Part shown: piece by piece, positions 4,481 to 62,372 of the stretch
Layout: each line of letters opens with the position of its first letter
Numbering within the stretch: the stretch's first letter is position 1
Assembly: GCA_950295325.1 (NCBI GenBank)
Contig: OX485807.1
Coordinates: 30,537,666-30,601,665 of the forward strand
Length of the DNA: 64,000 nt
DNA from: Polytrichum commune
Lineage: Eukaryota > Streptophyta > Polytrichopsida > Polytrichales > Polytrichaceae
Direction of reading: 5' to 3'
Translations under genes and position numbers: made by a program
The notes under the pieces: generated by a model
Database searches by the model: none
The model's input: only the letters and a program-made list of their open reading frames with translations
Told to the model about the DNA's origin: nothing

Positions 4481-4529
4481 CACTCGTAGGAGTTAAAAAA
4501 CCTAGTTGTAAAAGACGTGTTTTGTTGTA

Positions 4530-11656: not shown

Positions 11657-11712
11657 TGCAAAGCAATAGGTAACTTATGTAGCTCTGAAAGCCTAGCGTC
11701 ACAAGTGAAATG

Positions 11713-11735: not shown

Positions 11736-11736
11736 G

Positions 11737-17132: not shown

Positions 17133-17136
17133 TCGA

Positions 17137-17797: not shown

Positions 17798-18001
17798 CTA
17801 TGATTTTCCCACAAATTCATCTAAGCCCTTAGCATCTACAGGATCAAGCGAATAAATCTTCCCAATTGGATCATACTCCATTTTCACATTTGACATGATT
17901 GAATTTGCATCCACCCACTTACAATATGTTTGGTCATTGTGGAGTGTGAGATGTCTTAAAGTAGGGGAAATATAATACATCGTGAATTCAAAGCTGGACA
18001 T
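17798..18001 (-). CDS. Conserved 67-codon ORF, unknown family (copy A)
   Basis: The ORF stays open in both duplicates with 8 residue differences in 67. It contains 'TYCKWVDANSIMSNV' and ends 'LDEFVGKS'. The pattern C-x-(W/F)-(V/I)-D, a D about 15 residues later, then (S/T)L and LD(E/K) is also visible at 61640-61750. This suggests a shared domain of about 50 residues. It is likely the last exon of a longer or decayed gene: the frame upstream meets TGA near 18030, just before a GAAGGTACG that could be an acceptor. Function is unknown. Confidence 0.4.
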   Translation of the reverse strand: MSSFEFTMYYISPTLRHLTLHNDQTYCKWVDANSIMSNVKMEYDPIGKIYSLDPVDAKGLDEFVGKS

Positions 18002-18261
18002 GGCAACACCCTTTTTAAATGTGTCGTACCTTCAAATTTGCTTGCAAGGTCCAAAACCGGGTCTCTTGAAACCCCTTTACGATCCAAAACACATCCCCCA
18101 ATAACACTAAACTTCCTCAAAAGCACACACAAGACTCACGGCCCATGACCATTGCACTTCAAGTACTATCATTGATGGGAGAGGCGGAGCTAGTCTAAGT
18201 TCGTTTCACACTATGTTAGAGGGACCAACAGTGGTGCAACAAAGTAAGTGAATGCAAGATT

Positions 18262-18500
18262 AATGTAAAGGCTACATGGATTTCTACATGGTATCAAATG
18301 GATCATGTTTCATGGTCACTTGAAAGAGCATTTGGTTGAGGGCCCAGTCACATATGATTTCACACTACAATTGAGAATGTGACCCCACTACATGACTTTG
18401 GAAATGTCTTGGGACGGGCTTTGGACACTTCTTTTGGGCTCTCATAATTTCATGGTCACAACTCGTAGCTCGTGTGTGAAGTGACCCTAAACCATGATGT
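18262..18500. repeat. Dispersed repeat (copies at 18.3, 23.9 and 47.8 kb)
   Basis: The shared string contains 'ATCAAATGGATCATGTTTCATGG', 'CATTTGGTTGAG.GCCC' and 'CACTTCTTTTGGGCTCT'. Copies are at about 23862-24225 and 47752-47975. A shorter related block occurs at 18995-19052, in 'CAAGAGCC..TTTTCATGGTCATGG'. No coding sense was found. Confidence 0.5.
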
Positions 18501-19900
18501 CCAATGCCAACTTCTAAATTGGATGATTTTTAGCCAATCGAGGCAATTTCTCACCCAATCCAAATACATCCATTGAACCTCACATAAAGTCTTCACTCGT
18601 CCAAACATTACATATCCTACTTTATCAATAAAACTTTAATACCACCTATAGCTTTCACCTACCCTACTTTTAGATATAAGATTGTATGGTTCATTTTATT
18701 CAAGCTATAGTAATTCCAAAATTTACATAAATTTTGTTCTATTGAATTAAAAGTACCCTATATTTTTCTCACGTGGTTTAATAAAGTTTCGACATAAACA
18801 TAAACTAGGGGTTGTGGCAATCATTTAAATTACCTTTGGCACCTAGAAATATTATATTTGCATGGCAGGGACTCAAACCTGACCATATGTTGCGGCCCTT
18901 CAACATGGTCCACTTTCACTTTACACTAACCTTGAAGACCCATTCATTGCAGAATTAGATTTCCATTTCCTACGGTACAGACTTTGGATGATTTTCAAGA
19001 GCCCTAAAATTTTCATGGTCATGGTTCTTGATTTGTGTGTAAAGCGACCTTGAATATAATTTTGTGTGGTATTGGAATTAGTGTGCCATGTTAATGAGGT
19101 GGTCTTCTTGACTTGTTGTGTAACACCAACTTTTGGGAGATATCATGTGTCTTTATTTCTACTTGCCACATGGCCATTATGTAGAGCTCAACTACCTCCA
19201 CTTGTTCCTAGGGTTGCCCGTATCATAATGACTTAGAGCGTCGTCCGGATTAAGATTGTTAAACTACCTAATCTCCTTGTCGTTTGTTGTTGTCCTCCTT
19301 TGGTTTGAGGACGGCTTCCCTTGTTACATTGATAGGTGTCTTAGTTCCTCTTTTAGAAGTTACTCTACTTTGTGTTCATCATGATTGATTTTTAGGTTTA
19401 ACTTAAAGTCCCCTTCATTGTGATGAACCCTTCTCTTGGTGATATCTCTTCAAGTGGTCACGTGCAACTAAATGATGCTCTTACTTTATTAACTCAATTG
19501 CTTATAACTTTCTTCTTGTGTTGGATCCTTCATGTGCCGTAATTGCCTTTCAAGCTCAAATTTTACTTCTTTAGAATTGATCTAGATCTTGTTAATTTCT
19601 CCTCGTATATTGTAGTGTTGCATCTTTTTATGTGCCACAATTGTCTTTTAAATTTAAATGTTACTTCTTAGTATGGATCTAGATCATACTAACCTCTCTT
19701 TGTACATCGTAGTGTTGCAATTTCTTCATGTGCCACAATTGTCTCTTTTCTTTCTCCGAGACTTCTTTGTAGAGATTGAAGTCTTCCCTTACTCGAGGGC
19801 TTAAACCCTTCTCTCAATTCACATTAGAGTTCCTTTCTTAACCCAAGTGTTATTTCAACCATGTTGTGATAGGAACCGAGTAACTAAGTAACTTTGAGTA
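18501..19900. other. Non-coding, conserved with copy B
   Basis: No gene was recognised. The site GCTTAAAC at 19799-19806 is the empty target of the 335-bp element found in copy B. Confidence 0.35.
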
Positions 19901-19914
19901 ACATTTTTCATGGT

Positions 19915-20375
19915 TGTAGTTCCAAGTAGCTCTAGTAATCCAACTATCTATTTTCTCCTTCAAGTAGTTAGTTGAATTTTTTCTTCAAGTAGCTAAATAA
20001 CCAAGTAACCAAGTAGCCAAGCAACGAGTTCTTCTTCTTCTCAAGTAGCTAGTCAACTTTTCCTTCAAGCAACTAAGTATCTTAAGTAACCAAATTGCCA
20101 AGTAACGAGTTTCCTCTTCTCTTCCAAGTAGCTAAGTATCATAAGTAACCAAGTTGCAAAGTAGCCAAGTAATCCAAGTAATCTCTCTTATAAACTTTGT
20201 GCAACTCTCTTATAAGTTAACCAAGTGATCAAGTAGCCAAGTAACCAAGTAGCTAAGTATCTCTTCTATAAGTAATCAAGTAACCAAATAGCTACGTAGC
20301 CAAGTGACCGATTAGCAAGTTAACTTTCCTTCCAAGTAGCTAAGTAACCAAGTAGCAAGTTAATTTTTCTTTCAA
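19915..20375 (+). repeat. Minisatellite of AAGTAGCTAAGTAACC-like units (copy A)
   Basis: Irregular units of about 8-10 bp (CAAGTAGC, TAAGTAACC, CAAGTAACC) alternate with TTCTTC-rich spacers. The counterpart in B is at about 49735-50185. No ORF runs through it. Confidence 0.7.
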
Positions 20376-21004
20376 GTACCTTTTCTCTTGATTCTCCTTT
20401 CTACTCTCTTAATTGTCGTTCTCAATTAGCGGAGTTTCTTTTTGACAAGACATACGTAGCAATCAATCTAATAACCACCAAAATTATTGTTGAATACCCT
20501 CTTTCCATGTAGTGGAGATTTCCTCTTCACATGTGTAACAACACTTCTACTAACTTTTCATTTTCCTATCAACTTATGAGAAGGCATCTTATATCTTTCT
20601 CTCGAAGCTTGTCAGTTCTCTCAATCCTCAACTCTTCTTCATATGATGGTTTTCTTCTTCATAAAAATCCTTCAACACAATATCATTAATGCAACATCAT
20701 TATTATATGAGCTACGTCCAAATTTAGTGTAGTTGTATAAACATGTAACAATCAATACTTTCGACAACTTAAATGTGTGTCGAGGTCAGGTTCAACCATT
20801 AGCCTTAGACGGTGTAACTTGTTGCTGACCGGTTTACACAAACATCACTCCCACCAAAATTAGATTATTCTAGATTTCCATTTCTACGAAGGTGGTCGCA
20901 TGTATACTATTATTGCCACTTAGTTTTGTATCAGTCTCTAAGGTTTTTTTGCCATCCAAGGGTTTTATGCCATCCAAGGGTTTTATGCCTTGTTGGAATT
21001 TTCT

Positions 21005-21335
21005 AAGTTCTTCAAGCCTTCTCGGATTTTGGTTAAGTCTTTATCTTCAAAAGTTCTTCAAGCCTTCTCAGATTTTGGCTAAGTCTTTATCTTCAAAAGT
21101 TCTTCAAGCCTTCTCGGATTTTGGCTAAGTCTTTATCTTCAAAAGTTCTTCAAGCCTTCTCAGATTTTGGCTAAGTCTTTATCTTCAAAAGTTCTTCAAA
21201 CCTTCTTGGATTTTGGCTAAGTCTTTATCTTCAAAAGTTCTTCAAGCCTTCTCAGATTTTGGCTAAGTCTTTATCTTCAAAAGTTCTTCAAACCTTCTCA
21301 GATTTTGGCTAAGTCTTTATCTTCAAAAACATTTC
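21005..21335 (+). repeat. 46-bp minisatellite, about 7 copies (copy A)
   Basis: The unit is AAGTTCTTCAAGCCTTCTCG followed by GATTTTGGCTAAGTCTTT and ATCTTCAA. Copies differ by one to three bases. Copy B has about 4 units. Confidence 0.85.
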
Positions 21336-37752: not shown

Positions 37753-38925
37753 CGACACTAATTATCCCAATAGGTGTGTTGTGTACTAATTCCTGAAACA
37801 TGCATTGTTTTTTCAGGTTTCAAAATTAGTTAGGGTTAAATTTTTTACTAAGCGATACAAGATTCATGAATACATGCTCATTTACCATACATTTCAACAA
37901 AATTAGTGCGTGCTCTAAGGTATTTGTAGAGTGATAGAAGAAATTATATGCAAACATATGCTTGTCAGCATATCCTTACTCAACACTATGGTTGAGTTAT
38001 GCTTTTATATTTAGCAAATGACAGGGGCCACTGCTATCTTAACTTTATGGAAAGAAACTTAGATAATACGAAGAAACTAACACTGATATAAATAGTATGA
38101 ATATTAAGAATAGCACCAGTATTTGTAGTGAAAAATATTGCTATGAATAGTATTAGGATGAATATTGTTGGTATTTGTAGTGAATAGTGTTGCTATGAAT
38201 AGTATTTTTCACGGGTAGGTCACTCTAAGGCATTTTTGTGCACCACATGCGGCTAGGGGTTTTTTGTTTCGGGGCTATTTACCTTCAAGGGTTGAATTAA
38301 AGCCTCCCTATAATTACTTAAATTTCAAAAATGGCCCATTTGTTTGCACCCTTCCATTACTTGTATTGTCCAAGTCACTGCAATTTTTTGTACTCTATAT
38401 TCCTTTTAAGTAATAAAAGCTAATCTACTTCCTAACGCATTGACGAATGTTAAGGGAAACCATGGAAACAAAGAAGGGTGCAAACAGTAATATCATTGCA
38501 AACAAAGTTATGAAGAAAACACATAGGAGACCATAGCAAACATACTAAATATACCTTCTAGGATCCTTATCTTCAGCCCCTATATTAATTTTACAAAAAA
38601 ATAATGGCCCACATTTTATGTCCATCTAACTTACTTATAATGGGATTGTCTACATTTAATGGCCCCTTCATTATTTGGAATTCCTTTATAATTTTTATTT
38701 CAAATGATTTTAATCCTCTCTATATTATGCCGCACGTCGTTTTTAAAATGCACTAAGTGACCTACCCGTGGTATTTTTAATGAACAATGTCAGGTTGAAC
38801 AATGCTTCCTAGATCTTTTGGTGGAAATAATTTCATAGTGTAAAGAAATCTAGTATCAGCTTCACTCATTTCCCACACCCACTATTAGCCCACCCTCACT
38901 AATTGGGATAATTCATGTCGTGTCA
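37753..38925 (+). mobile_element. R-family MITE, copy 2, interrupted by another MITE
   Basis: A complete R copy running from about CGACACTAATTATCCC to GGGATAATTCATGTCG, split by the 561-bp insertion at 38210-38770. Homology to segment A begins inside it at about 38110, so one duplication breakpoint falls within this element. Confidence 0.65.
38210..38770 (+). mobile_element. 561-bp MITE with perfect 15-bp TIRs and 8-bp TSD
   Basis: Ends CACGGGTAGGTCACT / AGTGACCTACCCGTG are perfect inverted repeats. GTATTTTT flanks both sides (38202-38209 and 38771-38778). Segment A has the single GTATTTTT (7912-7919) without an insert, so this is a true insertion after, or polymorphic at, the duplication. 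The 8-bp duplication suggests hAT-type mobilisation. It has no coding capacity. A second member is at 56582-57077. Confidence 0.9.
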
Positions 38926-39741
38926 CTTACCAGTTTGACTCCTAGCAAATATCCAATGCTAACATAGAGTTACCAACTTCTCGACTAGTTCCCTTTTCCA
39001 CTCATCTTATCTTGATTATACCTACGCATCTCATGTTTTGCCAACCCTTTCTTAACACCAAGAATATTGTAAGCTTTATCCGTAAGGAATAAGAACAACC
39101 TTACCTTTTTTTTCCACATGGATTCTAGGATGATTGGGATCATCCACCCAAGTGTGAGGATGATTTCAAAATCTTGAATAATGATGTCTAAGTTCGTGCT
39201 ACTCCACATGAAAGACTACTCCATGAAATGATGGAGCAAGACGCATACATGACTTTCATAAATCAAATCTGCTAAAACTTAGGGTTTGTTAATCCTATGT
39301 CTAAGCATGTTAGGGTTTTCAAATAGAATAGCATGAGATAGTGGCTTTGAATTTTGATTAAAAACTAATAGCTCTTGTCATTGTAATGTGGTCTACGAAA
39401 CTGTGCTTCTAACAACAAGATTACATGGTTGTGGGCTCGAAACTATGATTCACTACAATCATACTTAAAACAAGGTGTGTGACTCAACAGTGATACACTT
39501 AACATTCAACAATTTGTTCAGGTTAGAAAAATTACATAATCATTTGTATGTACATCTATGCCAAGACACGCAAAGCTCATTCCTGTGCCAAAATATAGGC
39601 CGAATTTCTATAGGTATTAAAAAGAAACAGACCTTCACGAGCACGGCCCAATTGCTAGTGGAACATGCTGGTTTGTTGGTCCTAGATTACTAACTTCATA
39701 CTCTGACATACTTGTTATACATTCTTCTCACGAACTTATAA
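38926..39741. other. 3' flank of ankyrin gene B (non-coding)
   Basis: Parallels 8067-8815 with small indels. ORFs on either strand are not conserved in frame with A. Confidence 0.35.
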
Positions 39742-42514
39742 TTATGGAACGCTAACCGATAAGCGAAGTACATATAATGTCAATATTATTAGACAGACTC
39801 CTCCCCCCAACAATATACAACTGCCCACAGCGTTTCTTTCGCTCCATCCGAATGGTACAACTGCAATGCTTGCAGCTGAGAAACTTGCGAGTATACAAAT
39901 GATAGATATCAACAATAAAATACTTGCAAGACGTATACTTCCAACACGTTGTCTTCTTTTCGCTTCATCGTCCATGGAGTCTTTTGGAATTGGAAGAGAA
40001 GGAATTACTGCTGCTATAATGGATGCCACTGAGAAGAAAAAGGAGAGGCAGTTCCCCATTAAATAAATTTGTATTAGCATGTGGTCGATGCGGATATACC
40101 CATCCGTTGAATCATATCCTCGGGGTGGTTGAAGTGGCCCAATGATAGAAGCAGTGGTCACCAAGGCAGCAATAACCGATGTCGCATTTGCTGCATCACT
40201 TAGACTGTTTTGGACAAATAGATTCTCACTCACCACTTTTTCATACCACCACAGTGAAGCTTCACAGTTCGCCATAGACCCTGGAAATGGAGGTTCGCCA
40301 TCTTTATTTGTTGTACAAGCATCAATGCCTGCTTGCAAGAGTAGGCTGATGCAACTCCTTTCATTCCCTGTGTAATTCCTTGTGGAATTGTGAGAGCTTA
40401 AGCTTGAGGGCGGTGAACTTTGTATGACTGTATTGGCCAAAGAATCATACGGCATAAAATCTTGCAAAGTGAGAAATTGATTATGAATTCGCTCTCCTGC
40501 AGAGGTGTTGTTCAAAGTCACAGCGTAATGTAAAGCTGTGGATTTTTTATGACTTAGAGCAAACTGATCATAGCATCCACTACTCAAGATGGTCCGTGTT
40601 GCTTCACTGTGACCAAAAAAAGCAGCATAATGCAAAGCTGGCGTTGTCGAGGAAGTATCATCTTCATAATCTACTAATTCTGTATCCCATTTGCCTCTAT
40701 CTTGAACTCGTTTGTCCTGCACATAGAGTGAAAAATGTCAACTAATGCTTGTCAATGTAACACTTTTACTTAGGCTGGATAGCATTTAAGGAAAAGAAAT
40801 GATAGATGATATTTTGACATTCAATATGAGGTATTTCTTACAAAAGCAAAAGTTACTTCCCCCTTATTTAATCAACCCCAAAATGCTTAGATCAAATACT
40901 TAAAAAAATAAAAATAAAATTCCATACGTTAAGGAGTAGACGCAAAATGTTCGCATGTCCCAGAGATGCAGCAAGATGGATTGCAGATAAAATTTTTCCC
41001 TCATGTAGAAGAGATTCGTGGTCTTGGCTCTGTACAAAAAGTCCCCGTCTTAAACGATCATTTAAAAGATTTGTTTTTGACTGCGATGGAAACTTTATGA
41101 GTTGTTCTAGCACATGCATATGGTTGTGCAACACTGCCAAGTGAACGGCAGTGCAATGCTCCTGTTCTTCATACTCCGGCGAAAGGGTGACAAAGGGTGA
41201 TTTCCAATGCAACAAAGCAACCCATTCCTCGTAATGTTGTGGATGAACTCTGGCATGCACATCTACCCATTTGACCCGAAGTAAGTACTCTGCAGTGTCA
41301 TATCTCGAAATGACCATAGCATGAAGAGGGGTGCGGCCTGCAGCATCCCTAGCATTCCAGGATGCATAAGCCTCCTCATCACTCACGCCTTCACGAAATT
41401 CCTGATTCTTCATCAACCTCCAAAACATGTCCACAATATCCAAGTTCCAATGTTCGATGGCAACATGCAAAGGCGTTCTTCCTTGTGGATCATGCATCTT
41501 GAACAAGGCCCTCAATACCCCTTGCACCTTACACTCCCTGACCACTGCTGCAATAAAGTAGAAACGAACATGACTGTAGTTGCCTACATCTGGCGTGCCC
41601 CACCAAATTGAGTCTACAGAACAAAGAAAGTGGATAAACACTTCTTTGACATCCACAAACTCAAATTCCGGATGCTTCTCACACTTGTCATCCCAGCGTT
41701 CAATGCAGTTTTGTACATGCTCGTCTGTGAAACTGCTATTTTTCTCTCTAAAATCTTTAAATGAGGGAAGCTCAAGTACTCCATATTTCTTATTTTTTCG
41801 ATATTTTTGATAACTTTCATGCTTGGGTATATCCTCCATGTATTTTATCGGGTTTTCCATAACTCTCTGGATTATCTCATGGACTCTCATTTCATCACTT
41901 TCCACATCAGTGGCCAACGTTGGAGAAGGAGCATCCTCACCTGTGTAAGCCGTAGAACTAGGTGAACGAGCACCATTGTTGATTTGTCCATTCCCATCAT
42001 CACCCATGGACAACGGATTTCGATCTGGTGAATGGATGCTCCTCATAGATTTCCAAGTCGAGTAATTCACAATTTCCAGAGATGAAAATATCTTAACATC
42101 ATGTACATATTCATCATGCATGGCTTCCTCATCACACCATTCAATAGCGCCTTTCAAGAGTCTGACAACCTTGAAACTTCCATTCATGACCGCCATTCCA
42201 ATAACGGTTAGTCCCTCTGCATTTCTTTTGCTCAACAATTCCTCCAGTGTGAACTTGATGCCCTCCTGGTTGCATTGACCTCTGGCATTGAACATGTTGA
42301 GCACGTCTTCCACCAACTCCGCATAGCCATGCCTCACTGCCATGTCTAACACAGTGACATCCCTATCCCCCATTTCTTTAAGTAAAAGAGGGTTACTCTC
42401 TAACATATTCCGAATCTTATTGCAACTCCCCAAACGATTCAAATTTTGGAACCAATCTGAGCCCTCCGAAGCTCGAACAAAATACTTCTCTGTAACAGAG
42501 TCCCGCTTCGCCAT
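39742..42514 (-). CDS. Ankyrin-repeat PGG-domain membrane protein, copy B (2 exons)
   Basis: Exon 1 is 42514-40928 (529 codons) and exon 2 is 40716-39742 (324 codons plus stop), giving about 853 residues. The intron (40927-40717) has the same GTATGG donor and TGCAG acceptor as copy A, phase 0. Ankyrin repeats, the PPRGY segment and four hydrophobic C-terminal helices match copy A. Differences include in-frame indels in the low-homology segment after residue about 145, about 42 residue changes over about 318 aligned positions of exon 2, and more in exon 1. Near the 3' end two bases are missing relative to A (CTTATCGG for CTTATGTCGG). After 'YVLRL' the frame therefore gives 'SVSVP' and stops, so the basic 'RRMYNKYVRV' tail is lost. 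Membrane helices stay intact, so it may still function. It is the less certain of the pair to be expressed (see the TATA change). Confidence 0.85.
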
Positions 42515-44300
42515 TGCAAAACAATAGGTAACTTATGTAGCTCTGAAAGCCTAGCCTCACAAGTGAAATGCACGTGTTGGAGGAAAATTTCTAGTCAATA
42601 GCCCCTCGAGAAGGACAATGTAAAATTTGCGAGCAATTTTTGTCCGATTGAATGAGTCCCACCTTGATCCATATGAATATTAAGTACTTCCCACAAGAAG
42701 TCTATTGAGCAAAGGCATGATACGAATACATGCTCGCCAATGTCCACCTAGGCTGAAAGAACAACATCACAATGTCATTCTCATGAACAAAAGGGCTTGG
42801 GCCTCTAGGGGTCCAAACAATGGGGCTACTAACCTCCACATGTGAAAGGGAAAATTTACCATCTCGACATGTCAAAAGTCTTTGTAATTTACTTCATTGC
42901 AAATATTCACAAACCCTAAGTACAAAATTGTATTATATAATAAAGTTATATCCTAAGGCTCAAAACCAACTTATGAAAGGTGAACTTAACAACTTAATTT
43001 GAAAGATGACAACCCTACTATCATGGGTAGTAATGGTGTCTCAAATGATTAGATATTGCATAGAACTCTAGAATTGTACGTTAGATTCCTTCATGAACTT
43101 GATTGTATTTGCACTATCATTTCAGCTTACTCCCTTCAACTAGAGAAACTCATTAAACCTATTTCAAGGAGAATTAATTTCATTAAGAAATGACTAAGAT
43201 GGAGTTGTCATCAACAAAATTTCATATTTCTTTCCTCAAAAGCCATGTCACGGCTTAGTTGACCTTCAAAACTTAAGAGGCAAAACTCAGGAACCGGCCC
43301 ATTTAAGAAAGAAAAGTTTTAAAATACTTAAAGGTCTAACATAATTTCCAAGAAACCACAAGATTTCTCCTATAAGAGATGTGTAATCTCCTTAACACAC
43401 CAATTGAATTCAAGCCACTACGAAAAGATTTATTGAGCAATTACAGACATCACCAACAATACAACTTCACACTATTTGAAATCAAAGCACTCCGAAATGA
43501 TTTGTTGAGCAATTACAAACATCACCAACAATACAACTTTCTCTAGGTCCTAAGGTCAACGTGCCTAATTCAATTAAAAGTCTTGATCGGACACCTATAT
43601 TTGTGTGGTATGTGGTTAGGTGAAGCTCCAAAAACGGATATAAAAAATAAGGCATCGTCCCAAATATGATAATAACTATTCTAGATTTAATAGTCACATA
43701 CTTGGAAAGACATGTATGACCATTTAATGAGCACAAGAATTTTGACTATGGTAATGAATTCATATGAGCTCCAAATATCACGAGGAAAGTGGCCAAGGCC
43801 TTGATTTGGATTGGCTACCATCTCGTACCAGTCACATATTCTAATTTCTAGCAGAAGTGGGCAATTTAAGACAAAGTACCATTTAAGACCCATCTACCTT
43901 ACGGTGCACAAAGAAGCACTGCTCCAAAGACACATGATGTGGGTGTAAGCTTAACAGTTACTGATTTACGAATCGAAGTTAAGCAGGCCCATTCTGACGA
44001 GCTATCCTCTGTCGCAGTTCCACCTTCAGCGATCTACAACTAAAGTCACAACACCCTAAATCTGTACAAAACTAACTAATTAACTTACCTCCACATAACA
44101 CAACCTACGCGAATAATATTCAGTTGATTTTCTAAATTGGACACCTTTATTTGATTGGTGTGGTTAGGCGAGGATCGAAGAACGAAAATCATAAAGACAA
44201 CTCTTTAAAAGAGATTTGATTACGTCTTCAAATGTTATTAAAGAATCCACACTAAGTGGTGAACACAATTGGAAGGACATATGTATTCAATAAAGAATCA
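42515..44300. other. Upstream non-coding region of gene B
   Basis: The counterpart of the TATA-like motif reads TAGAAAT on the minus strand (plus ATTTCTA at about 42588-42594), while the G-box CACGTG is kept (42571-42576). 43221-43850 looks identical to 12361-12990. The repeat copies at about 43576 and 44122 match those in A. Confidence 0.5.
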
Positions 44301-46600
44301 ACAATCATGCACTTCATATAAAATATCATGACTAAAGTAGGGGAGATTTGTTTTTGTTGATCTTTCAATCGTAGATTTGGTAATGCAACTCAACTTTTGT
44401 TGTGTATCTTTGATAGGTAGAAGTTGAACATAAAAACGAATCGAATAACATCCACACACCTTAGATGGGCCCAAATTTAGTTGAGTAGCAGCATAAGTGC
44501 TCAGTTGGAAGTTGAAATCAAATCCCTTTCCTCGTGCTCCACCCACTTCAGTCTCTCCTGCTGCACCGTTCACACAAGCCAATACCAACTCAGGCTCTAG
44601 AAACTAAGATGTGTGGGTGTTGTTCGGTTACTTTTCTTAATTGGACCCCTATTAAATGATTGGAGTGTAATTAGGTGAGGATCAAAGAAAAAACACCATA
44701 AAGACACATGTTTAAAAGACGATGGAGGATATCTTTTGGTACTATCAACAATTTCGCACTCAATAATGAACACGATTGGGAAAATTTACCTATTCGGTAA
44801 GGAATCAACAAACATGCACTTTCGATTCCCATACTAAATCAAGAGAAGTCCGAATTTTACTGATGTATCGTCATAGATTTGCTACTGCAACACAAGTTGT
44901 TTTTCTATAATATTCTAATCGGTAGAAGTTGGAGAACATGAAAAACGAAGTAATGAAGACGCACCCACCTTAGCATCTTCAGAGATCGGCTGCACAAGCA
45001 CTCATGATACTCACACATAGACAGGGTAGAAAGATGAGCACAGATGCAGAAGACATAATAGCTTTGTGCTTGTTGAGCAGATATATATATATTGGCCACT
45101 TGCCTGCAGGAAACCGTCTCTAAGTTAGTCATTCACTTGTGACCAAGTCTTTTTGGGACCAGGCCACCTGATTTTCATTTGTCAAGATGACCACTACAAC
45201 TTCAACTTGAATGCGAGCGTCCTGCACACAATTCTAGACTCTTCACAGCAAGGGGCGATTTACACAAGACCAAGCAATGTGACCACTGCCTATTGATTGG
45301 TCAGCCCTGCTTTGGTAAAGATAGTGTGAAAATAAAAGAGTGGTCCTTCATTGGAGAGAGGGAATTCTCGCATACGAGCGTATCTCTGGATATATATCCT
45401 TGAAAAAGTATTTATTTTGGAGGTTATTTTGTTTAGTTAAGTTGGCACTCGAATTAGTTCTGAAGACTCCGGATCATTCTAATCCATGTCATTGGAGATG
45501 AGTCAACCACAAACCTATAGGGAGTCAGGGCCAAAGCATGATAAAGTGAACAAGAAAAGTGTTCTACCCCTTCACTGTGATACAATTGTCATATATAATG
45601 AGAGAAGTAGGCTCAATTCTATTCAAAAACTTCAATTCAAGACCATGGAGCCCTTCATTGGGTTTGAACCAAACATAGTACACAATTTGTGCCTCATCAG
45701 TAGTATGGAGATACATATCACGGGGGGTGCACTCATTGCTAGAACCTGTGCATGACCTTGAAAATAATACCCCTAATATACTAGATTTCCACCCTCTTAA
45801 AAATGATATACGTACAATATGTAGCTAGGAAATCCCCTTGAATGCATACACAAGTGAGAAATAAATAAATCATATAGACCTCACTCATATATATATATAT
45901 GCCGGAAAGAACATATGGAACATATGGCTATAGTACTCTTAGCAAGACATATTTATTTATCATTGATTTTATCATTGAATACTCATTCATCTACTGGATG
46001 TAACTCATACAGATTTTGTTTACTCAAGATAAGTCATTATAGCCAATGCAATAGTGGTTTCTAACTCTACCATCAATGCCTTTTCATATTGTATGTCCAC
46101 ATTGACCCATTCTTATTTTATGGAAGTGTGCCACAACTTTTGAAGCAAGGTACATTTCCTTGACGTCTACTTCACCCGTTCTTTCCAAAAACCAACAATC
46201 ATGGAAGTTTAGAATCTACTTCTATGGATAGAAATCATGTAGTTTGCAAATATATTTATGAAAACATCATGACCCACCTTATTAGTAACTTTGATATGAA
46301 TAAATATTATTATTTGGAGTTATAAAATTAGGAAATGTGTCTACTTGCCCCTCCAAACTGGTAGGCTACAACCTTCGTTCACATTACCATGCTTTGGCCC
46401 CTCAAGTTTCTACGTTGGACAGATGAGCGCTCAACATGACATAATTCTCTCTCCCCCTTCACAATGGTCTTGGTGTCAATCGAAAAGTGACTACACTAAG
46501 GGCAACTTTAAACTAGAGCTTAAGGGCCCTTGACTTGTGATATGCAAATTATGTGATTGGTCGAGAAGCCAGAGATGGTCAAGAAATTCACTTCACACTC
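44301..46600. other. Non-coding part of copy B with exon-like remnants
   Basis: Contains the counterpart of the exon-like ORF at 13596-13736 (44588 down to 44456, one base shorter upstream). It also holds the third repeat copy (about 44625) and a short (TA)n near 45887. The 780-bp stretch of A is absent at about 46114. Confidence 0.35.
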
Positions 46601-47282
46601 GACCTTGCAGGTCTATGGGACCAAAGACATTTGAATGGATGAAATTCTACATGGTGTCCTATATGGCAACAAGTGGACAATATTTTATGGTCTACCGGAT
46701 ATTGTTATAGGCGTTTCAAAAAGAGGTGGATCTAACCACGGGAAGGTCACTAGCTATATACTTTGTAAATCACATGCGGTCATGGGTTATTTAAAGATGG
46801 GCTATTTATCTAAATTTCTTGAATAATTGGCACCCTAGTAATAGATAAATGGTACTTTAAGGTATTTTTCAAGACCCTATAGGTAAATACAATATACACC
46901 ATGAATTTATTTTATAGACTTTATTTTATTTGTAAACTTTACCATTTTATCAAAATCTTGGAATTTTGATTTAAATTGACATTAATCCATAACAAAATTA
47001 CAACAATACTTTAACGAAACTTTCAGATAATAGCCATTGTGTTCAATGCCTAAAGTGCAAAAATTTGGTGTGGTTACTTTCAAGACCTACAACAAAAGTA
47101 GAACAAAGATAAAGATTAGATTGCTCTCACAATCAAGCAACGTGTTAAAAAAACAGAACAGAATGAACCTATAACATAAGTAAAATATCCAACATTATTG
47201 TATATAAAGAATCAAATGCCCAACACTATTCTCTACAAGGGCATGTATTCAAGCTTGATCAATAGCAATGCAATTCTTAGAA
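46601..47282. other. Non-coding, conserved with A
   Basis: Empty site TCGA (46599-46602) for the 583-bp element precedes it. A 63-codon ORF at 46635-46826 parallels 17169-17360. A 25-bp insertion relative to A lies at about 46876-46900. Confidence 0.3.
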
Positions 47283-47486
47283 CTATGATTTCCCCACAAA
47301 TTTATCTAAGCTCTTAGCATCTACAAGATCAAGTGAATAAATCTTCCTAATTGGATCATACTCCATTGCCACATTTGACATAATTGAATTTGCATCCACC
47401 CACTTACAATATGTTTGATCATAGTGGAGTGTGAGTTGTCTTAAAGTAGGGGAAATATAATACATCGCGAATTCAAAGCTTGACAT
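47283..47486 (-). CDS. Conserved 67-codon ORF, unknown family (copy B)
   Basis: Same length and start as 17798-18001 with eight substitutions and no indel. It retains 'TYCKWVDANSIMSNV' and 'KIYSLD'. Preservation of the frame while nearby DNA carries indels suggests constraint, or a recent copy. Function is unknown. Confidence 0.4.
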   Translation of the reverse strand: MSSFEFAMYYISPTLRQLTLHYDQTYCKWVDANSIMSNVAMEYDPIRKIYSLDLVDAKSLDKFVGKS

Positions 47487-49304
47487 GGCAACACCCTTTT
47501 TAAATGTGTCGTACCTTCAAATTTGCTTGCAAGGTCCAAAACAGGTCTCTTGAAACCCCTTTACAATCTAAAACACATCCCAATAACACTAAACTTCCTC
47601 AAAAGCACACACAAGACTCAAGGCCCATTACCATTGCACTTAAAGTACTCTCATTGGTGGGAGAGGCGGAGCCGGTCTAAGTTCGCTTCACACTATGTTT
47701 GAGGGACCCCATAGAGGTGCAACAGAGTAAGTGAATGCAAGATTAATGTAAAGGCTACATGGATTTCTACATGGTATGAAATGGATCATGTTTCATGGTC
47801 ACTTGAAAGAGCGTTTGGTTGAGGGCCCAGTTACATATGATTTCACACTACAATTGAGCATGTGACCCCACTACATGATTTTGGAAGTGTATTGGGACAA
47901 CCTTTGGACACTTCTTTTGGGCTCTCACAATTTCATGGTCACAACTTGTAGCTCGTGTGTGAAGTGACCCTAAACCATGATATCCAATGCCAACTTCTAA
48001 ATTGGATGATATTTAGCCAATCGAGGAAATTTCTCACCCAATCCAAATACATCCATTGAACCTCACATAAAGTCTTCATTCGTCCAAACATTACATATCC
48101 TACTTTATCAATAAAACTTAAATACCACCTATAGCTTTCACCTACCCTACTTTTAGATATAAGATTGTATGGTTCATTTTATTCAAGCTATAGTAATTCC
48201 AAAAATTTATATAAATTTTGTTCTATTGAATTAAAAGTACCCTATATTTTTCTCACGTGGTTTAATAAAGTTTCAACATAAACATAAACTAGGGGTTGTG
48301 GCAATCATTTACATTTACCTTTGGCACCTAGAAATATTATATTTGCATGGCGGGGACTCAAACCGGACCATATGTTGTGGCCCTTCAACATGGTCCACTT
48401 TCACTTTATACTAACCTTGAGGACCCATTCATTGCAAAATTGGATTTCCATTTCCTATGGTACGGACTTTGGATGATTTTCAAGAGCCGTAAGATTTTCA
48501 TGGTTATGGTTCTTGCTTTGTGTGTAAAGCGACCTCGAATATCTACTTTTGTGTGGTATTGGAATTCAATTTGGTGTGTCATGTTGTTGAGGTGGTCTTC
48601 GTGACTTGTCGTGTAACACCAACTTCTAGGAGGTACATGTGTCTTTGTTTCTACTTGCCACCTAGCCATTTGTAGAGCTCAACTACCTCCACTATCGTAT
48701 CGTAATGACTTAGAGCGTCGTCCGGATTAAGATTGTTAAACTACCTAATCTCTTTGTCGTTTGTTGTTGTCCTCCTTTGGTTTGAGGATGGCTTCCCTTG
48801 TTACATTTATAGGTGTCTTAGTTCCTCTTTTAGAAGTTCCTCTACTTTGTGTTCACCATGATTGATTTTTAAGTTTAACTTGAAAGTCCCCTTCATTGTG
48901 ACATCTCTTCAAGTAACATTGTGACCCTTCTCTTGGTAACATCTCTTCAAGTAGTCACGTCCAACTAAATGTTGCTCCTAATTTATTAACTCGATTTTTT
49001 GTAACTTTCTTCTTGTGTTGGGTTCTTCATGTGCCGTAATTGCCTTTCAAGCTCAAATTTTGCTTCTTTAGCATTGATCTAGATCTTGTTAATTTCTCCT
49101 TGTATATTGTAATATTGCATCTCTTTATGTGCCGCAGTTGTTTTTTAAATTTAAGTGTTACTTCTTAGTATTGATCTAGATTGTATTATCCTCTCTTTGT
49201 ACGTCGTAGTGTTGCAATTTCTTCATGTGCCACAATTGTCTCTTTTCTTTTCTCCAAGACTTCTTTGTAGAGATTGAAGTCTTCCCTTACTCAAGGGCTT
49301 AAAC
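47487..49304. other. Non-coding, conserved with copy A
   Basis: 47752-47975 is a dispersed-repeat copy. An 85-codon ORF at 48347-48604 is not open in A over the same span, so it was not called. A small duplication of CATCTCTTCAAGTA occurs near 48902-48955. Confidence 0.35.
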
Positions 49305-49639
49305 CTCGGGGGGGGTAGTCATTGGTTGGAGTAGCAATATACGTGCGAACAAATGATAGGGTATTTTAAAAACATGGGGGCTAAAAATTATAAATGGACT
49401 TAAGAGTAATATAGGGTATCAAAAATGACCCTGGACATCTTTAAAGTACTATAGGGTATGGAATAATAGGTAATTTGGAATTATAAGTAATGCAAGCCAT
49501 TTTTCTATTAACCCAAAGTAGAAATTTACATAATGATAGCATGTGAAAAAAAGAAGAGAATTGAAAGTAATACCCCCCTATAAAATAGTGGTTGTTCGCA
49601 CCTATATCCTTAACTTTTTAACACACTGCCCCCCCCGAG
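49305..49639 (+). mobile_element. 335-bp element ending in CTCGGGGGGG / CCCCCCGAG
   Basis: Flanked by GCTTAAAC (49297-49304 and 49640-49647). Copy A has one GCTTAAAC (19799-19806) and no insert. The termini are inverted C/G runs. A subterminal inverted pair (GCAATATACGTGCGAACAA and TTGTTCGCACCTATATCC) lies within. No coding sequence was found. The 8-bp duplication suggests a hAT-related MITE, and the poly-G ends are unusual. Confidence 0.85.
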
Positions 49640-49734
49640 GCTTAAACCCTTCTCTCAATTCGCATTAGAGTTCCGTTCTTAACCCAAGTGTTATTTCAAT
49701 CCTCTTGTGATAGGAACCGAGTAACTAAGTAACT

Positions 49735-50185
49735 TTGAGTAACCTTTTTCATTGTTGTAGATCCAAGTAGCTCTAGTAATCCAACTGTCTTTTCTCCTTC
49801 AAGTAGTTAGTTAAAAAAAATTTCAAGTAGCTAAATAACCAAGTAACCAAGTAGCCAAGCAACGAGTTCTTCTTCTTCTCAAATAGCTAGTCAACTTTTC
49901 CTTCAAGTAGTTAAGTATCTTAAGTGACCAAATTGCCAAGTAACAAGTTTCCTCTTCTCTTCCAAGTAGCTAAGTATCATAAGTAACCAAGTTGCAAAGT
50001 AGCCAAGTAATCCAAGTAATCTCTCTTATAAACTTTGTGCAACTCTCTTATGAGTTAACCAAGTGATCAAGTAACCAAGTAACCAAATAGCTATGTAGCC
50101 AAGTGACCGATTAGCAAGTTAACTTTCCTTCCAAGTAGCTAAGTAACCAAGTAGCAAGTTAACTTTTCTTCCAAGTACCTTTTTC
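49735..50185 (+). repeat. AAGTAGCTAAGTAACC minisatellite (copy B)
   Basis: Counterpart of 19915-20375. It is shorter by several units, mainly around 50060-50090. Confidence 0.7.
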
Positions 50186-50732
50186 TCTTGATTCTCCTTT
50201 CTACTCTCTTAATTGCCATTGTCAATTATTGGAGTTTATTTTCAACAAGACATAGGTAGCAATCAATTTAATAACCACCAAACTATTGTTGGATACCCTC
50301 TTTCCACGTAGTGGAGATTTCCTCTTCACATGTGTAACAACACTTCTACTAACTTTTCATGTTCCAATCAGCGTATGAGAAGGCATCTTGCATCTTTCTC
50401 TCGAAGCTTGTTAGTTCTCTCAATCCTCAACTTTCTTCATATGATGGTTTTCTTCTTCATAAAAATCCTTCAACGCAATATCATTAATGCAACATCATTA
50501 TTATATGAGTTACGTCCAATTTTAGTGTAGTTGTATAAACATGTAACAATCAATACTTAGGACAACTTAAATGTGTGTCGAGGTCACCTTCAACCATTAG
50601 CCTTAGACGGTATAACTTGTTGCTGACCGGTTGACACAAACATCACTCCCACCAAAATTAGACTATTCTAGATTTTCATTTCTACAAAGGTGGTCACATG
50701 TATACTATTATTGACACTTAGTTTTGTATTAC

Positions 50733-52232: not shown

Positions 52233-52288
52233 TTAGTCTCTAAGGTTTTTTTGCCATCCAAGGGTTTTATGCCTTGTTGGAATTTTCT

Positions 52289-52490
52289 AAGTCATTATCT
52301 TCAAAAGTTCTTCAAGCCGTCTCGGATTTTGGCTAAGTTTTATCTTCAAAAGTTCTTCAAGCCTTCTCGGATTTTGGCTAAGTCTTTATCTTCAAAAGTC
52401 CTTCAAGCCTTCTCAGATTTTGGCTAAGTCTTTATCTTCAAAAGTTCTTCAAGCCTTCTCGGATTTTGGCTAAGTCTTTATCTTCAAAAA
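52289..52490 (+). repeat. 46-bp minisatellite, about 4 copies (copy B)
   Basis: Same unit as at 21005-21335 with fewer copies and some internal shortening. Confidence 0.8.
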
Positions 52491-55929: not shown

Positions 55930-57680
55930 TGAATGTGTTGTTGTTAGCATTTGAGTAGTATGTATAACCATGTATTTGTATTTGATGAGTTGTAAATTGG
56001 GTATGTTTTTTAAGGGTTAAGCTTCTCTACCAAAGAAAAGTTATTTCCAAGCATGGCCCATATACTGTCCAGTTCATAATTTAACTAGGCACGTTTTTTG
56101 TTAATTTGTAATAGTGAGGGTTTTCTAGAAGTTGTTTGATAATAATACCTGGTCGATATCTTTGTTTTGGAGCCACTTGTGTAATTGGTGTGTTTGGTTT
56201 GCTATAACTTCTAGGTTATGCCTTTTATCATATTTGAGGACATATTTTTCAAGGTGTCAAATGAGGCTTTTGTCTTGTGTTTCTTGCATTGAGTGCCACT
56301 AGTCTTTTTGGAGGTAGTATGGTATAGGGTGTGCATGTTCAGATGGTGTTACGGCATCTCTATGATCTACTTCGCATCCCGAATTGGCTAGCGCGTCTGC
56401 TTGTTCATTGCCATTTATGTTAACATGGGCTTTGACTTCATGGAGTGTGGTGGTTTGTGTACGGGATTGTAGCATTTTGGTCATAGATTTGAGGATATTT
56501 GTATATGGGTGGTTGTTATGCAAAGTGGGATGTTTGATTTGTGTGTTTAGAATTTAGGGTTTTAGATATAGGACACTAAGGTACGGGTAGATCACTCTAA
56601 GGCATTTTTGTGCACCACGTGCGGCTGGGGGTTTTTTGTTTTGGGGCTATTTACCTTCAAGGGTTGAATTAAAGCCTCCCTATAATTACTTAAATTTCAA
56701 AAATGGCCCATTTGTTTGCACCCTTCCATTACTTATATTGTCCAAGTCACTGCAATTTTTTGTACTCTATATTCCTTTTAAGTAATTTTGGACAAACGGA
56801 AATCCCAATTATCATCCATCCCTGTGAGTCCTAAACCCATTTACATACCATACTAAACATACCTTCTAGGATCCTTATCTTCAGCCCCTATATTAATTTT
56901 ACAAAAAATAATGGCCCACATTTTATGTCCATCTAACTTACTTATAATGGGATTGTCTACATTTAATGGCCCCTTCATTATTTGGAATTCCTTTATAATT
57001 TTTATTCCAAATGATTTTAATCCTCTCTATATTATGCCGCACGTCGTTTTTAAAATGCACTAAGTGATCTACCCGTGCACTAAGGCAATTTGTAAAGATA
57101 TTTGCTAGTCCGTCACGATATGTGGTGGTGAGGAGTTGGAGGGTGTGGTGTATAGCCATCATTTCTACTCGTAAGTTGTTTTGTAGCCTCGGTAGACTTT
57201 CTTTAGCCAAATAGCATAGCCTACGGTCGGCCAAGGCTGCTTCCTACAAATTTGGTTCGAACCTGCGGATTACGGAAGAAAAAAAAGTCTGCAATTTTTA
57301 GATTTCTAATGGGATTGTATATGCCATATCAACCTTTTCATGTTTCCAATGTCCTTGAGTTGCTTGTTTAGGTGGTTTGAATGACATATTTGTGTAATAA
57401 CAAAATTGTAGTGGGTATTTGAGGGGTAGATATCATTCTAGGTTGGTGACGAGTGGGGTATCAATGGTTTGTGTGATTGGTAGGTAGGGGGGGGGGTATG
57501 TGAGTTTAGTTCATTTTGTACTACAATATACTGGAGTGAGTTCTCACGTAGGTGGTGCAGTTTGGATGAACATTGTGGGTATTTGTAGGGTGTAAGCAAT
57601 GGCGTCTATGTGTTGGGTATATTCTCTTGATCCAATGAATGTAGTTTTGTGGTGTATGCATAGTATATGGATGGCACAAC
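55930..57680 (-). pseudogene. LINE-type RNase H / C-terminal remnant, split by a MITE
   Basis: Read on the minus strand. 57680-57235 shows stop-broken protein-like sequence. 57234-57078 gives an RNase H-like core ('LPRLQNN', then 'RVEMMAI' with the catalytic-type Glu, and 'IFTNCL' where relatives have Asp). After the MITE (57077-56582), 56581-56299 continues the same domain: 'HNNHPYTNIL' and 'KAHVNINGNEQADALA', the typical closing motif with its Asp. Below 56299 the reading continues with stops ('TGQYMGHAW', 'FFGREA') toward 55930. This is the pattern of the RNase H and C-terminal part of plant non-LTR retrotransposons. Multiple stops, a lost Asp and the insertion make it dead. No reverse transcriptase was recognised in the window. 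Confidence 0.7.
56582..57077 (+). mobile_element. Second copy of the CACGGGTAG MITE, 496 bp
   Basis: Same family and orientation as 38210-38770, with the ends TACGGGTAGATCACT and AGTGATCTACCCGTG. It is flanked by CACTAAGG (56574-56581 and 57078-57085). Most of the sequence matches the first copy. An internal stretch of about 150 bp is replaced by an unrelated segment of about 85 bp. It sits inside the LINE RNase H remnant. Confidence 0.9.
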
Positions 57681-57681: not shown

Positions 57682-57981
57682 TTTTGTTCTAAGCTCAATT
57701 CGTAATTATGGTGGTATTGTTGGCTCTTCGTATATGATGGTGTCAACTTTGAAGTGTGTTATGACATATGAGTTTGGGAAGGGGCCATCAATGTCTAATG
57801 TCAAATCTTCTCTTACAAGTATCCTCTAAAATCTTCACTACTAAGAGCTCAGAGCTTGAGTCCCCCCCCATGTACGCAACTCCTGAATTATATAGCGTTG
57901 ATTATAATCATCTATAATGCATTTTAGTCCAATCTTAAGTGACATAATTTGTTATATTGTAGGAAACTCTTGTAGCCCTCT
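57682..57981. other. Spacer before the zinc-finger ORFs
   Basis: A possible acceptor TATATTGTAG (57953-57962) lies 20 bp before ATG 57982. The in-frame TAG at 57973-57975 argues that the ATG is the start if this is the coding frame. Confidence 0.3.
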
Positions 57982-58385
57982 ATGGATTATGTAAAATTTG
58001 AAGAGTGCAAGCGCCTTACATGTTACAATAAAGATGGTTGTTTGTTGTTCAACCCTTCATATGAAAACCCCTTGTTTTGTGATTGTTGTACTTGTCATAG
58101 AAACTTTCACCATGCAATTTATAATATACCTCCAAATAGTGGTGTGTATGTAGAAAAAAATATAATGGTGGGTTTGATGATTGCCAATTGTTTTATCATG
58201 ATGGGACCAATGCTTTTAAATACGGTGCATGTGGATACCATAGATCATTACATAAGCCTCCACCATCAATATCACCATCATATTCATATAAAAATTATAC
58301 AAAATTTAATTATAAACATCATTTTTTATCACATGGTAATATTATGTTTATTGATGATGATAATGAATATTTAAAAAAATTCTAA
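57982..58385 (+). pseudogene. Two tandem ZF-HD-like zinc fingers in adjacent frames
   Basis: ATG 57982 opens a frame whose residues 4-44 read like a shortened ZF-HD dimerisation finger: 'EEC', then 'KDGCLLFNPS', then 'CDCCTCHRNFHH'. The consensus is ECxKNH..DGCxxFxP..xCxxCxCHRNFH. About 35 bp later another frame (58143-58385) reads a second finger: 'VCRKKYNGGFDDC', 'FYHDG' and 'GACGYHRSLHK'. The order is the same, but one Cys is replaced by Tyr in 'CGYH' and another by Tyr before it. Both fingers have only about 9-10 residues between the first Cys and the GC/DC, shorter than usual. The frame change lies between about 58125 and 58160, near a run of seven A. No homeodomain was seen downstream. 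An 81-codon ORF (58388-58633) follows and may be a continuation. The locus may be a decayed gene or a gene with an assembly error. Confidence 0.5.
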
Positions 58386-58633
58386 GTATGAGCTTGAAAT
58401 TAAATGATGTTATATCCAATGTCAATATTACTCCAATTTCTTTTATTAATATTAAATTGGGTTTTTTTGTTGGCAAGACTAGCTCTGATATTACAAACAT
58501 GGATGTTTATGATAGTTTGAATGTTGATGTAATTAACATATCCAAAAAACTACAAAAATTTGAAAACTATCAGTTAAAAAATATATTGAATGTGATTTTG
58601 GGACGTTTATTCCACGCCTTTCCAAAGATATGA

Positions 58634-60027
58634 AGAAATTTTTGTCAATATGGATCATTTGATGTCATCCATATTAGAAAGTAATGTATATTATCCGAGG
58701 AAAGTCATTTAATTTGTTTAACTTTCATATACATCTCTAACCCAAATTACCTCTCAAATGTGGAGTTCCTATCAATAAATTAAAGCATGAGATAACTTTC
58801 TTGGAATAAATGAAAGTGATTTAATCTCATTAGGAAGCTCTTACAATTATTGAACTTACAACATTCAAGAGAAGATCTTGGATAGTGAAACATTCTTTCA
58901 AAAGCAATCATTTTATTTTCCTTAATTTTAAGCATGATATATTTTTATTTCATATATATTTTTTAATAAAATGTATGGAATTATGTCTTAGGGGCTGTAA
59001 TGATCGATGAGAATATTTAGATATGCGCAATACATAATTATAAGAACAATGTTGGACTAAAAAATACAATTAATGTTCACTTAAATCGAGTATTACACAT
59101 ACAAGTAATGAAAAACAAGAACATTGTTGGTACACAAGATAGCCAACTTATTATTATCGTCTTCCTAGCAGAAATAATCAGATTTAAAGCAGTTGAAAAT
59201 CCTCTACTATTTATCTTCCACTATTTATTTAATATTCCACATCATATGTTATTTAGTGACATGAAAGATAATATATGTCATGAATTTTAGAACAACTCAT
59301 TAGTTATCAATAATGAGGTGGTAGATTGAAGATGGTTACTAAATATTCTTTAGATTGGAACCTTGTGGTATTCCGACTTGCATTATTCATAGCACATAGA
59401 AAAAAAATGATAAAAGTCTCCACATTAAATATATTTTAAAGCATATTAATGGTTTAATCGTATTTTGAAACATGTGTCTCTTGATCTCAAGACTAGCTGA
59501 TTTCAAATAAATCTTCCAATTTGTTAGGACCAATTATGGACACCAACCAAAACATATATAAAAGTAAGGTATTTATGTACACAATTGGGTTGATTGAATA
59601 GACATTCATTCATTTATCATTAATACTAATAAAATCAAAATCAAAACTTGGTATTTCAATACATATTCCCTATAAATACTTTGAAGTTAAGTCGACATGT
59701 GTCGCACTAGCAACTCTAAATAAGTGTAAGGACTTCATACATAAATTTTATAAAATAAAAAAATCTTTTGAAACTCCTTTATAAATATTAACGTGACCCT
59801 AAACCAACAGCTGTTAGGTTAGATTTAATTATAGGAAAATTTCCAAGCATGTAGGTTGGCAACATTTATTATACATTAGTACCAAACCTTTAGTGAAATG
59901 AATGTTTAGATTGATCTATGAAATAATAACCATGTATAATAAGTTTGATGCTAACAGGTTGAGTTGCAATTTACACATCTCACAACTTTGTACAAGAACA
60001 TATATATGAAATTATTAGTCCTCTCAG
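58634..60027. other. AT-rich spacer
   Basis: No gene, RNA or clear repeat was recognised. Confidence 0.3.
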
Positions 60028-60181
60028 GAGGATGCAAGTGATGGTGATGCAAGGAGGAGAAAAGTAATATTGGAGAGTAATTATAAGGGCATATTTGCAT
60101 TCAATAAGGATGGTTTCTTGATAAAGTTGGATATTGTTAATAGACATCTATGGATCATCTTGCAAGATCCGATATACATGG
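60028..60181 (+). other. Exon-like segment (CTCTCAG acceptor, GTAAGC donor)
   Basis: Between CCTCTCAG and GTAAGC one frame is open for the full 154 bp. It reads 'EDASDGDARRRKVILE', then a mixed hydrophobic stretch ending '..LQDPIYMG'. Protein-like composition and good splice borders suggest an exon of the locus that includes the fingers upstream or the ORF at 61.3 kb. No family was recognised. Confidence 0.3.
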
Positions 60182-60470
60182 GTAAGCAATTTTGAAATCC
60201 TTTATTGAATCTTCGAAAGACAATATTTTGGGAGGGATTTTTCTTATAATTGGCGATTTAATTGTTTATTAAATTTTAATATAGATTGTTAGATGAAGAT
60301 ATAAATGCAAAGAACAAAAAAAATACCATGTTGTACAATGTGATATATTTAATTGAATTAGAGTATGTTCGAAAATTTACATGTCGGAGTTGTTGTAAAT
60401 AAAAATTTCAAAAAATAATACATGTTGGGTATAATCATAAATATGAAATAATATATGAAAAGATAATGTT

Positions 60471-60472
<2 letters not shown>

Positions 60473-60512
<40 letters not shown>
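60473..60512 (+). repeat. (TA)n microsatellite
   Basis: About 20 TA dinucleotides, followed by ACACATATAC. Confidence 0.95.
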
Positions 60513-60522
<10 letters not shown>

Positions 60523-61275
60523 TTCTTATGGGATGAAGTATATCTCAATATAAAATATGGATATACTATTAGGAGCAATTGGATGAGTAGACAAACTCTC
60601 ACTGATTGCCACACAACTTGTCATCATGTTGTTTATTATGTCGGAATAATGAGAAATAACTACCCTATTTGTCATACCTATTATATAATATTGGTTCAGA
60701 TTATTATAAGGATTTTTCCTTCTTAAATAAAAATGAGAATTTTTTTTTTCTATTGAAGAATCTATAGAAATATGTTCTCACATTGGTATAACTAAATATT
60801 TTAAATATTTTAATAATGTAATATTAACTATCCAATTTTGAAGGACGGGAAATATATGGTGGTTATGAAATGCCCAAATGACAAGTGCTAATTTATGTGA
60901 TTATGTCTTAGTGGCTTATAAGAATCTTAAGATGGTGTGGCATGAGGGTGTTGTGATAGTGCAAAATAGGGTTGAAAGAATTTTCATAAAGAAAATACTC
61001 CAAACATTTGATAAATAGATTGACCCTTGGTCCCCCCCCCCCTTTTTTCTTCCCTTAGTTATGAATCATTAGCTTATAATACACATCAAAATTGTATGGA
61101 GAGACCTAATAATCATGTTGTTAATGATGGACCTCTTAAAAAAACCATAGTAATTTTGCAATCAACATTGTTACATGTTAAACAAAATGATAATGTAAAT
61201 AAAATAATTTTAAGTATGGGCTTAAAAAGTATCTAACAATAATATTCTACAATTGAAATACTATATAAAGGTAAA

Positions 61276-61900
61276 GTGTACAAGATGAGATTAAATTTTG
61301 AGCTGAACATACACTTCCTTAAGAAGTTATTCTTGGACATATTGAGGCGTGTGAGATATAAGTACACAAGTCCACATGTTTATGTGCATGATGATGATCA
61401 AGTGTATGTGAGATTATTTGATGATGTAGGGCTTATGTTTGATGAAAGTAAGGAGAAGTTAGCATGGCTCATTGGAAGGGTGCAGAAAATAATCAAGGAT
61501 GTTAATAAAACAAAAACCATGTGGATTACGCCCGAAGTGTTTTTTTTCCGATAAGATTATCAAAATATTGCCGAAGTACCACAAACAAATTGCAGGATTG
61601 CAGTACACATATGGAGGTTATGAAGGAGCCGAATGCAACTTCATTGACATGGAGAATGTTGTATGTATAATTTTAATAGTCATTGATACAAACAAGGATG
61701 CACAGACATTGGTTGTAAAGGATCATGATGCCTTGGACAAACACATGGATTGTGAGATGAAATGTAGAGGCTTATGTAGTGGGGGTAGAGGTAGGAAGAA
61801 AAAATGTGTTGCACCTGTAATTGTTGCACCTCCTTCCAAAAAAAAGACCTCCAAAGGGCCCTCTAGTATTTGTAAATATTGTACCGACATTTACTTCTAA
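61276..61900 (+). pseudogene. Unrecognised ~205-residue ORF with one frame change
   Basis: Frame 1 (61276-61554) runs through 'KEKLAWLIGRVQKI' to a run of eight T (61541-61548). After it, the protein-like reading continues in another frame ('SDKIIKILPKYHK..') to the stop at 61898-61900. The second part contains 'ECNFIDMENVV', a later 'VIDTNKDAQTL' and 'ALDKHM', which align with the 67-codon ORF of the duplicated segment. A basic C-terminus follows ('GGRGRKKK', 'PSKKKTSKG') with CxxC at the end, nuclear-protein-like. A one-base homopolymer slip would restore one frame, so the break may be an error or a real lesion. The family is unknown. Confidence 0.4.
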
Positions 61901-62372
61901 CACCCCTCTTCGACGCTCTACAAGTTTTAAAAGATCGGTGTTCGAATTATTTATATACGTTGTGGATTTCTCGTTTAATAAATATGCAACCCAACTTTTT
62001 CTACACCTCATCTAATTTAATATGCTTTTCACGTAACGCTTTTATTCTTTTACTTTTGTATAATTAGATATAATTTTTACAAAAGTTGTCCTCTAAACCG
62101 TTTTAGTGCCGATGCCCCTTGCCTATAATATGGGAGTTGCGTACCTGGGAAGTCTCCTACTCAAATCTAAGACTACTTGAACTAACTTTACAACCAACTT
62201 GTACTATGAGCTCAAACCACACTACTAACAACTCCAAAGTCTTTTGCCCTGACTTATGTACCAAAACCTAACCCTAACCCTAAATGAGGGATACCCTAGT
62301 ATTCATAAAATATCCCAATGAAACCAATAATTACCATAGTAGAACAAATAGTACAGTAGTATGTTATTGCTG
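61901..62372. other. Non-coding spacer
   Basis: Two to three CCCTAA units (about 62266-62284) resemble telomere repeats but are too few to call an interstitial telomere. Nothing else was seen. Confidence 0.35.

Follow-up and report, generated by a model that had tools for sequence, protein, structure and literature searches.

On the forward strand of Polytrichum commune contig OX485807.1, in the 64,000 nucleotides which we analysed (the window), two successive stretches between 57982 and 58379 resemble the zinc finger of the ZF-HD superfamily. The locus is, in our judgment, probably the decayed remnant of a land-plant member of this superfamily which had a tandemly duplicated finger and no homeodomain and would have acted as MIF proteins do. 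An earlier reading of the sequence only had offered a decayed copy as the alternative to an unusual subfamily of tandem, short-loop fingers. The decayed gene is the better reading because metal ligands of the second finger are gone and the reading frame is broken twice.

Layout of the locus

The locus consists of three segments in three frames. Segment 1 (57982-58155, frame 1) comprises 58 codons from an ATG located six bases past an in-frame TAG (57973-57975). It carries finger 1 (CX4CX5CX12CX2CXCHX3H) and contains a stretch ending FCDCCTCHRNFHHAI. Frame 1 as such is open from 57982 to 58374, i.e., for 130 codons from the ATG. The similarity resumes in frame 3 with DDCQLF...YGACGYHRSLHK in segment 2 (58155-58379), in which finger 2 (C-X12-Y-X2-C-X-Y-H-X3-H) is followed by a tail rich in tyrosine and lysine; this frame is open from 58140. 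Segment 3 (58379-58633, frame 2) has 84 open codons, a stop and no recognised domain. Its best Pfam match, N1_PEX6 (E 0.097, 13.3 bits vs. a cut-off of 28.1), is taken as chance; from position and frame we infer that the segment is part of the same gene as segments 1 and 2. Joined over three frames the reading is 217 residues long and open to 58633.

The first frame change falls within 58137-58160. It lies after a frame-3 TAG (58137-58139) and no later than the last base of a seven-A run (58154-58160), which has the position and length given in the sequence-only reading. As the interval also contains a GTGTGT repeat (58142-58147), slippage is possible either there or in the A run. The second frame change falls within 58367-58385 and its interval contains a further seven-A run (58373-58379). 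Both changes are in the same direction, with one seven-A run in each interval.

Probable ZF-HD identity of the fingers

The ZF-HD dimerisation region is represented in Pfam by PF04770, with a curated (gathering) cut-off of 27 bits. Pfam names this family for each of the two stretches, in agreement with the proposal of two successive ZF-HD-like fingers in different frames. Each finger alone stays below the cut-off: finger 1 reaches 21.6 bits (E 2.8e-4; 57976-58155) and finger 2 15.3 bits (E 0.025; 58155-58379) or, with 58140 as its start, 15.0 bits (E 0.032). The whole frame-1 ORF attains 19 bits (E 0.0018), the finger being all that Pfam lists there. The joined reading of 217 residues matches in two stretches with 29.2 bits (E 1.2e-6), and is thus above the cut-off only when the three frames are joined.

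A small ZF-HD profile, assembled from five finger sequences, was run on 2366 six-frame segments of at least 18 codons. Finger 1 ranked first (E 2.9e-5) and finger 2 second (E 0.009), adjacent to each other and on the same strand; the third segment had an E of 0.32 (61795-61863) and was the next match downstream, i.e., this profile detects no third finger there. After addition of the window's own finger 1 to the profile, which then matches by construction, finger 2 had an E of 0.0077. Alignment of the joined reading against the three forward frames of 58651-62000 gave scores of 41, 44, and 38 vs. shuffle maxima of 53, 62, and 54.

The tail pattern CX2CXCHX3H occurs once in all six frames of the window, in finger 1, and a relaxed form admitting C or Y occurs only at fingers 1 and 2. 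Neither form was present in 60 second-order random windows of 64 kb; the patterns were composed after the fingers were known, and the control accordingly measures rarity and is no independent test. The two fingers align with each other at a score of 44, which was reached by 2 of 500 shuffles and, on repeat, by 20 of 2000; if finger 2 is started at 58140, 24 of 2000 shuffles score as high. The similarity between the fingers is thus at about the 1% level of shuffles.

It is rather unlikely that the fingers are not ZF-HD by descent and belong to a lookalike Cys/His-rich plant family such as DC1/C1-like. Such an origin would fit with single fingers that score under the Pfam cut-off and with a first half that departs from the ZF-HD pattern, the full-length form of which (CX3[HC]X5-13CX12-26CX2CXCHX3H) is absent from the window. 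However, at E up to 10 Pfam lists PF04770 alone for both fingers and lists no DC1/C1-like profile, a range in which the HMMER filters drop most matches above about 0.1. A DC1-like sequence scored 2.6 bits on finger 1 and gave no reported match to finger 2 up to an E of 100, whereas the ZF-HD consensus scored 15.1 and 12.3 bits, respectively. Further, DGC and CHRNFH are both present in the ZF-HD consensus printed in an excerpt of PMC9690586.

Anatomy of the fingers

An excerpt of PMC13087070 gives the ZF-HD pattern as CX3HX11CX12-26CX2CXCHX3H, with five Cys and three His; in an excerpt of PMC9690586 the ZF part is described as two pieces, CH2C and C3H2, with a spacer of variable length between them. 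In finger 1 the codons for the eight ligands begin at 58006 (C), 58021 (C), 58039 (C), 58078 (C), 58087 (C), 58093 (C), 58096 (H), and 58108 (H). The second half, CX12CX2CXCHX3H, has exactly the canonical spacing. The first half reads CX4CX5C vs. the canonical CX3HX11C; the His is replaced by Cys, and there are 10 residues from the first to the third ligand compared to 15. An extra Cys is encoded at 58084.

Could frame 1 simply be translated as is? The ORF 57982-58374 would then yield a working single-finger, MIF-like protein with finger 1 and a hydrophobic tail. The uninterrupted 130 codons and the eight occupied ligand positions, one with Cys for His, are in line with this. Yet finger 2 is encoded, in another frame, by part of the sequence of this tail, Pfam finds the finger alone in the entire ORF, and the first half of finger 1 is not CX3HX11C. 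We regard a working protein of this kind as improbable.

Finger 2 retains ligands at 58182 (C), 58230 (C), 58239 (H), and 58251 (H), and has the same X12 spacing as finger 1. Tyr is encoded at 58221 and 58236 in the positions where Cys is expected, i.e., the canonical second half is not preserved. When the frames are joined at the A run four of eight ligands are present and the first two have no counterpart; when frame 3 is read from 58140 there are five of eight. The earlier remark that the second finger is losing cysteines is thus confirmed, with three or four of eight ligands gone. A short first loop had been ascribed to both fingers. This is so for finger 1; for finger 2 it would apply only to a frame 3 that is read from 58140 on. 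In that case a Cys at 58149 precedes that at 58182 by 10 residues, as in finger 1, but the ten residues between them score -4 against their finger 1 counterpart. A short first loop in finger 2 is a possible reading, with support from the spacing only. Our results support the ZF-HD identity, the tandem order, the absence of a homeodomain and, for finger 1, the shortened first part.

Homeodomain and relatives

A profile built from two ZF-HD homeodomains detected no homeodomain-like segment near the fingers; its best match in the window (E 0.076 at 17681-17770) is 40 kb away, which agrees with the initial description of the locus as free of a homeodomain. Searches for relatives of finger 1 gave 4 pattern matches in viral contigs and 34 in prokaryotic genome contigs, and none was confirmed. 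Among solved structures finger 1 matched only two actinohivin chains (E 0.22 and 0.26), which we dismiss as chance; a MIF1-like finger matched none at E up to 1. Among the open-access matches listed in a literature search, which mostly excluded subscription journals, no title or abstract opening names tandem ZF-HD fingers.

With the MIF (mini zinc finger) proteins the locus shares a ZF-HD finger without a homeodomain, and finger 1 is canonically spaced in its second half. It differs from them in having two tandem finger-like stretches instead of one, a shortened first half in finger 1, a degenerate finger 2 and a broken frame. With the ZHD (zinc finger-homeodomain) transcription factors it shares the PF04770 finger, but no homeodomain-like segment, C-terminal in those factors, is found near the locus.

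Origin of the frame changes

An intron between the fingers was considered and rejected: the GT-AG pairs that lie past the final His of finger 1 and ahead of finger 2 enclose only 4-15 bases, which is too short. Around the second frame change (58270-58440) there are four GT-AG pairs of at least 40 bases (41, 47, 51, and 57), of which those of 41 and 47 bases fit the frame. For a plant intron, both lengths would be low.

The fingers could also be joined by programmed -1 frameshifting at the A7 runs, both of which are readable as slippery stretches with a -1 step. Against this, the 100 bases past the first A7 run have no stable structure. Their z-score is +1.18 and 178 of 200 shuffles have an equally or more stable fold, i.e., they fold worse than the average shuffle, and frameshifting is therefore unsupported at this run. 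Programmed -1 frameshifting is not known from this plant family. We hold this explanation to be extremely improbable.

The frame changes may instead be assembly errors, e.g., in the seven-A runs. In the plant the gene would then be intact and would encode a tandem-finger, homeodomain-free ZF-HD protein of about 217 residues which pairs with ZHD factors. Several observations are compatible with such errors: a seven-A run lies inside both frame-change intervals, both changes have the same direction, the joined reading is open to 58633 and exceeds the Pfam cut-off, and long open segments are unusually frequent in the region. However, Tyr in place of Cys at two ligand positions of finger 2 is beyond any run-length error, and the first frame change need not be in the A run at all. 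Also, of the five duplicated block pairs in the window, four were compared (11072 aligned bases with 701 mismatches and 50 gaps), and 6 of 23 single-base gaps there are in runs of at least four, so run-length error is not a dominant feature; the duplicated copies differ by several per cent, and this gap count thus mixes in real changes. One ankyrin pair has gap lengths of 18, 18, 9, 12, and 33, and the other of 6, 46, and 2. Finally, the ankyrin-type genes of the window have an open frame of 546 codons in each copy, and others of 345 and 331 codons; these frames are long and open, therefore the assembly is not broken throughout. Taking both sides, we think it unlikely that the gene is intact and the breaks are artefacts.

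Two points nevertheless count against a relic, besides the scores of the single fingers below the Pfam cut-off. Homopolymers are also places of assembly error, and the second frame change lies at one, as perhaps does the first. Further, the forward strand of 57930-61900 has seven open segments of at least 80 codons, compared to a mean of 0.31 and a maximum of 3 in 400 first-order random regions. This excess is overstated because overlapping frames are counted separately (132 with 81 codons at the locus, 135 with 103 codons at 61.2-61.9 kb) and because one of the seven segments contains an AT repeat. Still, such a richness in open segments is more than an old pseudogene should keep. There is a small chance that some land-plant lineage has homeodomain-free tandem ZF-HD proteins able to bridge two ZHD factors, with one full zinc site, its first half shortened and Cys-substituted, and one reduced site. 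The locus would then be one of these, intact or recently broken.

Surroundings in the window

The two 2-kb steps covering 58001-62000 have a G+C content of 0.277 and 0.304, vs. 0.333-0.475 in the other steps. More stretches that once were coding may lie in this AT-rich block, 61243-61897 among them. There, two overlapping forward frames of 102 and 135 codons have the look of a single protein whose frame changes near a run of eight T (61540-61547). In Pfam this stretch has nothing better than E 0.13, and its 135-codon frame has no match in phages.

The Pfam scan covered 43 frames of the window: 39 whole and one trimmed out of 65 frames of at least 85 codons (25 of the 65 were left out), and three shorter ones. 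Ankyrin and PGG domains were found, and one scanned frame matches NOPCHAP1 (E 2.7e-6). The joint presence of ankyrin-PGG and ZF-HD sequences indicates a land plant. A large, interrupted direct duplication (7912-20931 and 38771-50729; five block pairs with about 90-94% identity) carries an ankyrin-PGG gene in two copies, with long open frames. A 46-base tandem repeat is present near both duplicated blocks, at 21005-21328 (7.0 copies) and 52287-52489 (4.4 copies).

Two copies of a short element are located at 56583-57077 and 38211-38770, with end pieces that are 97.5-98.3% identical. The ends are inverted (YACGGGTAGRTCACT and AGTGAYCTACCCGTG) and the copies are flanked by the 8-base direct repeats CACTAAGG and GTATTTTT; from these features we take the element to be hAT-like and non-autonomous. 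The copy at 56583-57077 sits between two open frames on the minus strand, 56299-56553 and 56938-57243. The former matches RNase H below the Pfam cut-off (E 3.9e-5), and the two are perhaps one interrupted RNase H of a LINE. The broken open frames at 4512-6957, the last with a weak match to the SWIM zinc finger (E 0.084), presumably resemble a plant transposase.

Implications for the ZF-HD family

A MIF-like action is proposed for a homeodomain-free ZF-HD finger protein because of the behaviour of known MIFs. According to an excerpt of PMC13087070, AtMIF1 and ZHD5 form non-functional heterodimers, the DNA binding of ZHD5 being inhibited, and rice MIF3/4 interact with ZHD1/2. By analogy, the ancestral, MIF-like fingers of the relic would have bound the fingers of full-length ZHD factors and would thereby have kept these in complexes unable to bind DNA; such a protein might have linked two partners through its second finger. 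Small insertions or deletions would then have broken the frame twice, and finger 2 would have lost its three or four ligands. At present the locus would encode no more than a protein with one finger and an out-of-frame tail, and a functional product is unlikely.

Should a working tandem version exist, the dimerisation finger would be an element that can be multiplied to bridge partners, and the reduced site would show which ligands are dispensable. As a broken copy, the locus would be a record of domain duplication in a family whose small members, the MIFs, are described as single-finger proteins in an excerpt of PMC13087070, and would as such be of modest value.
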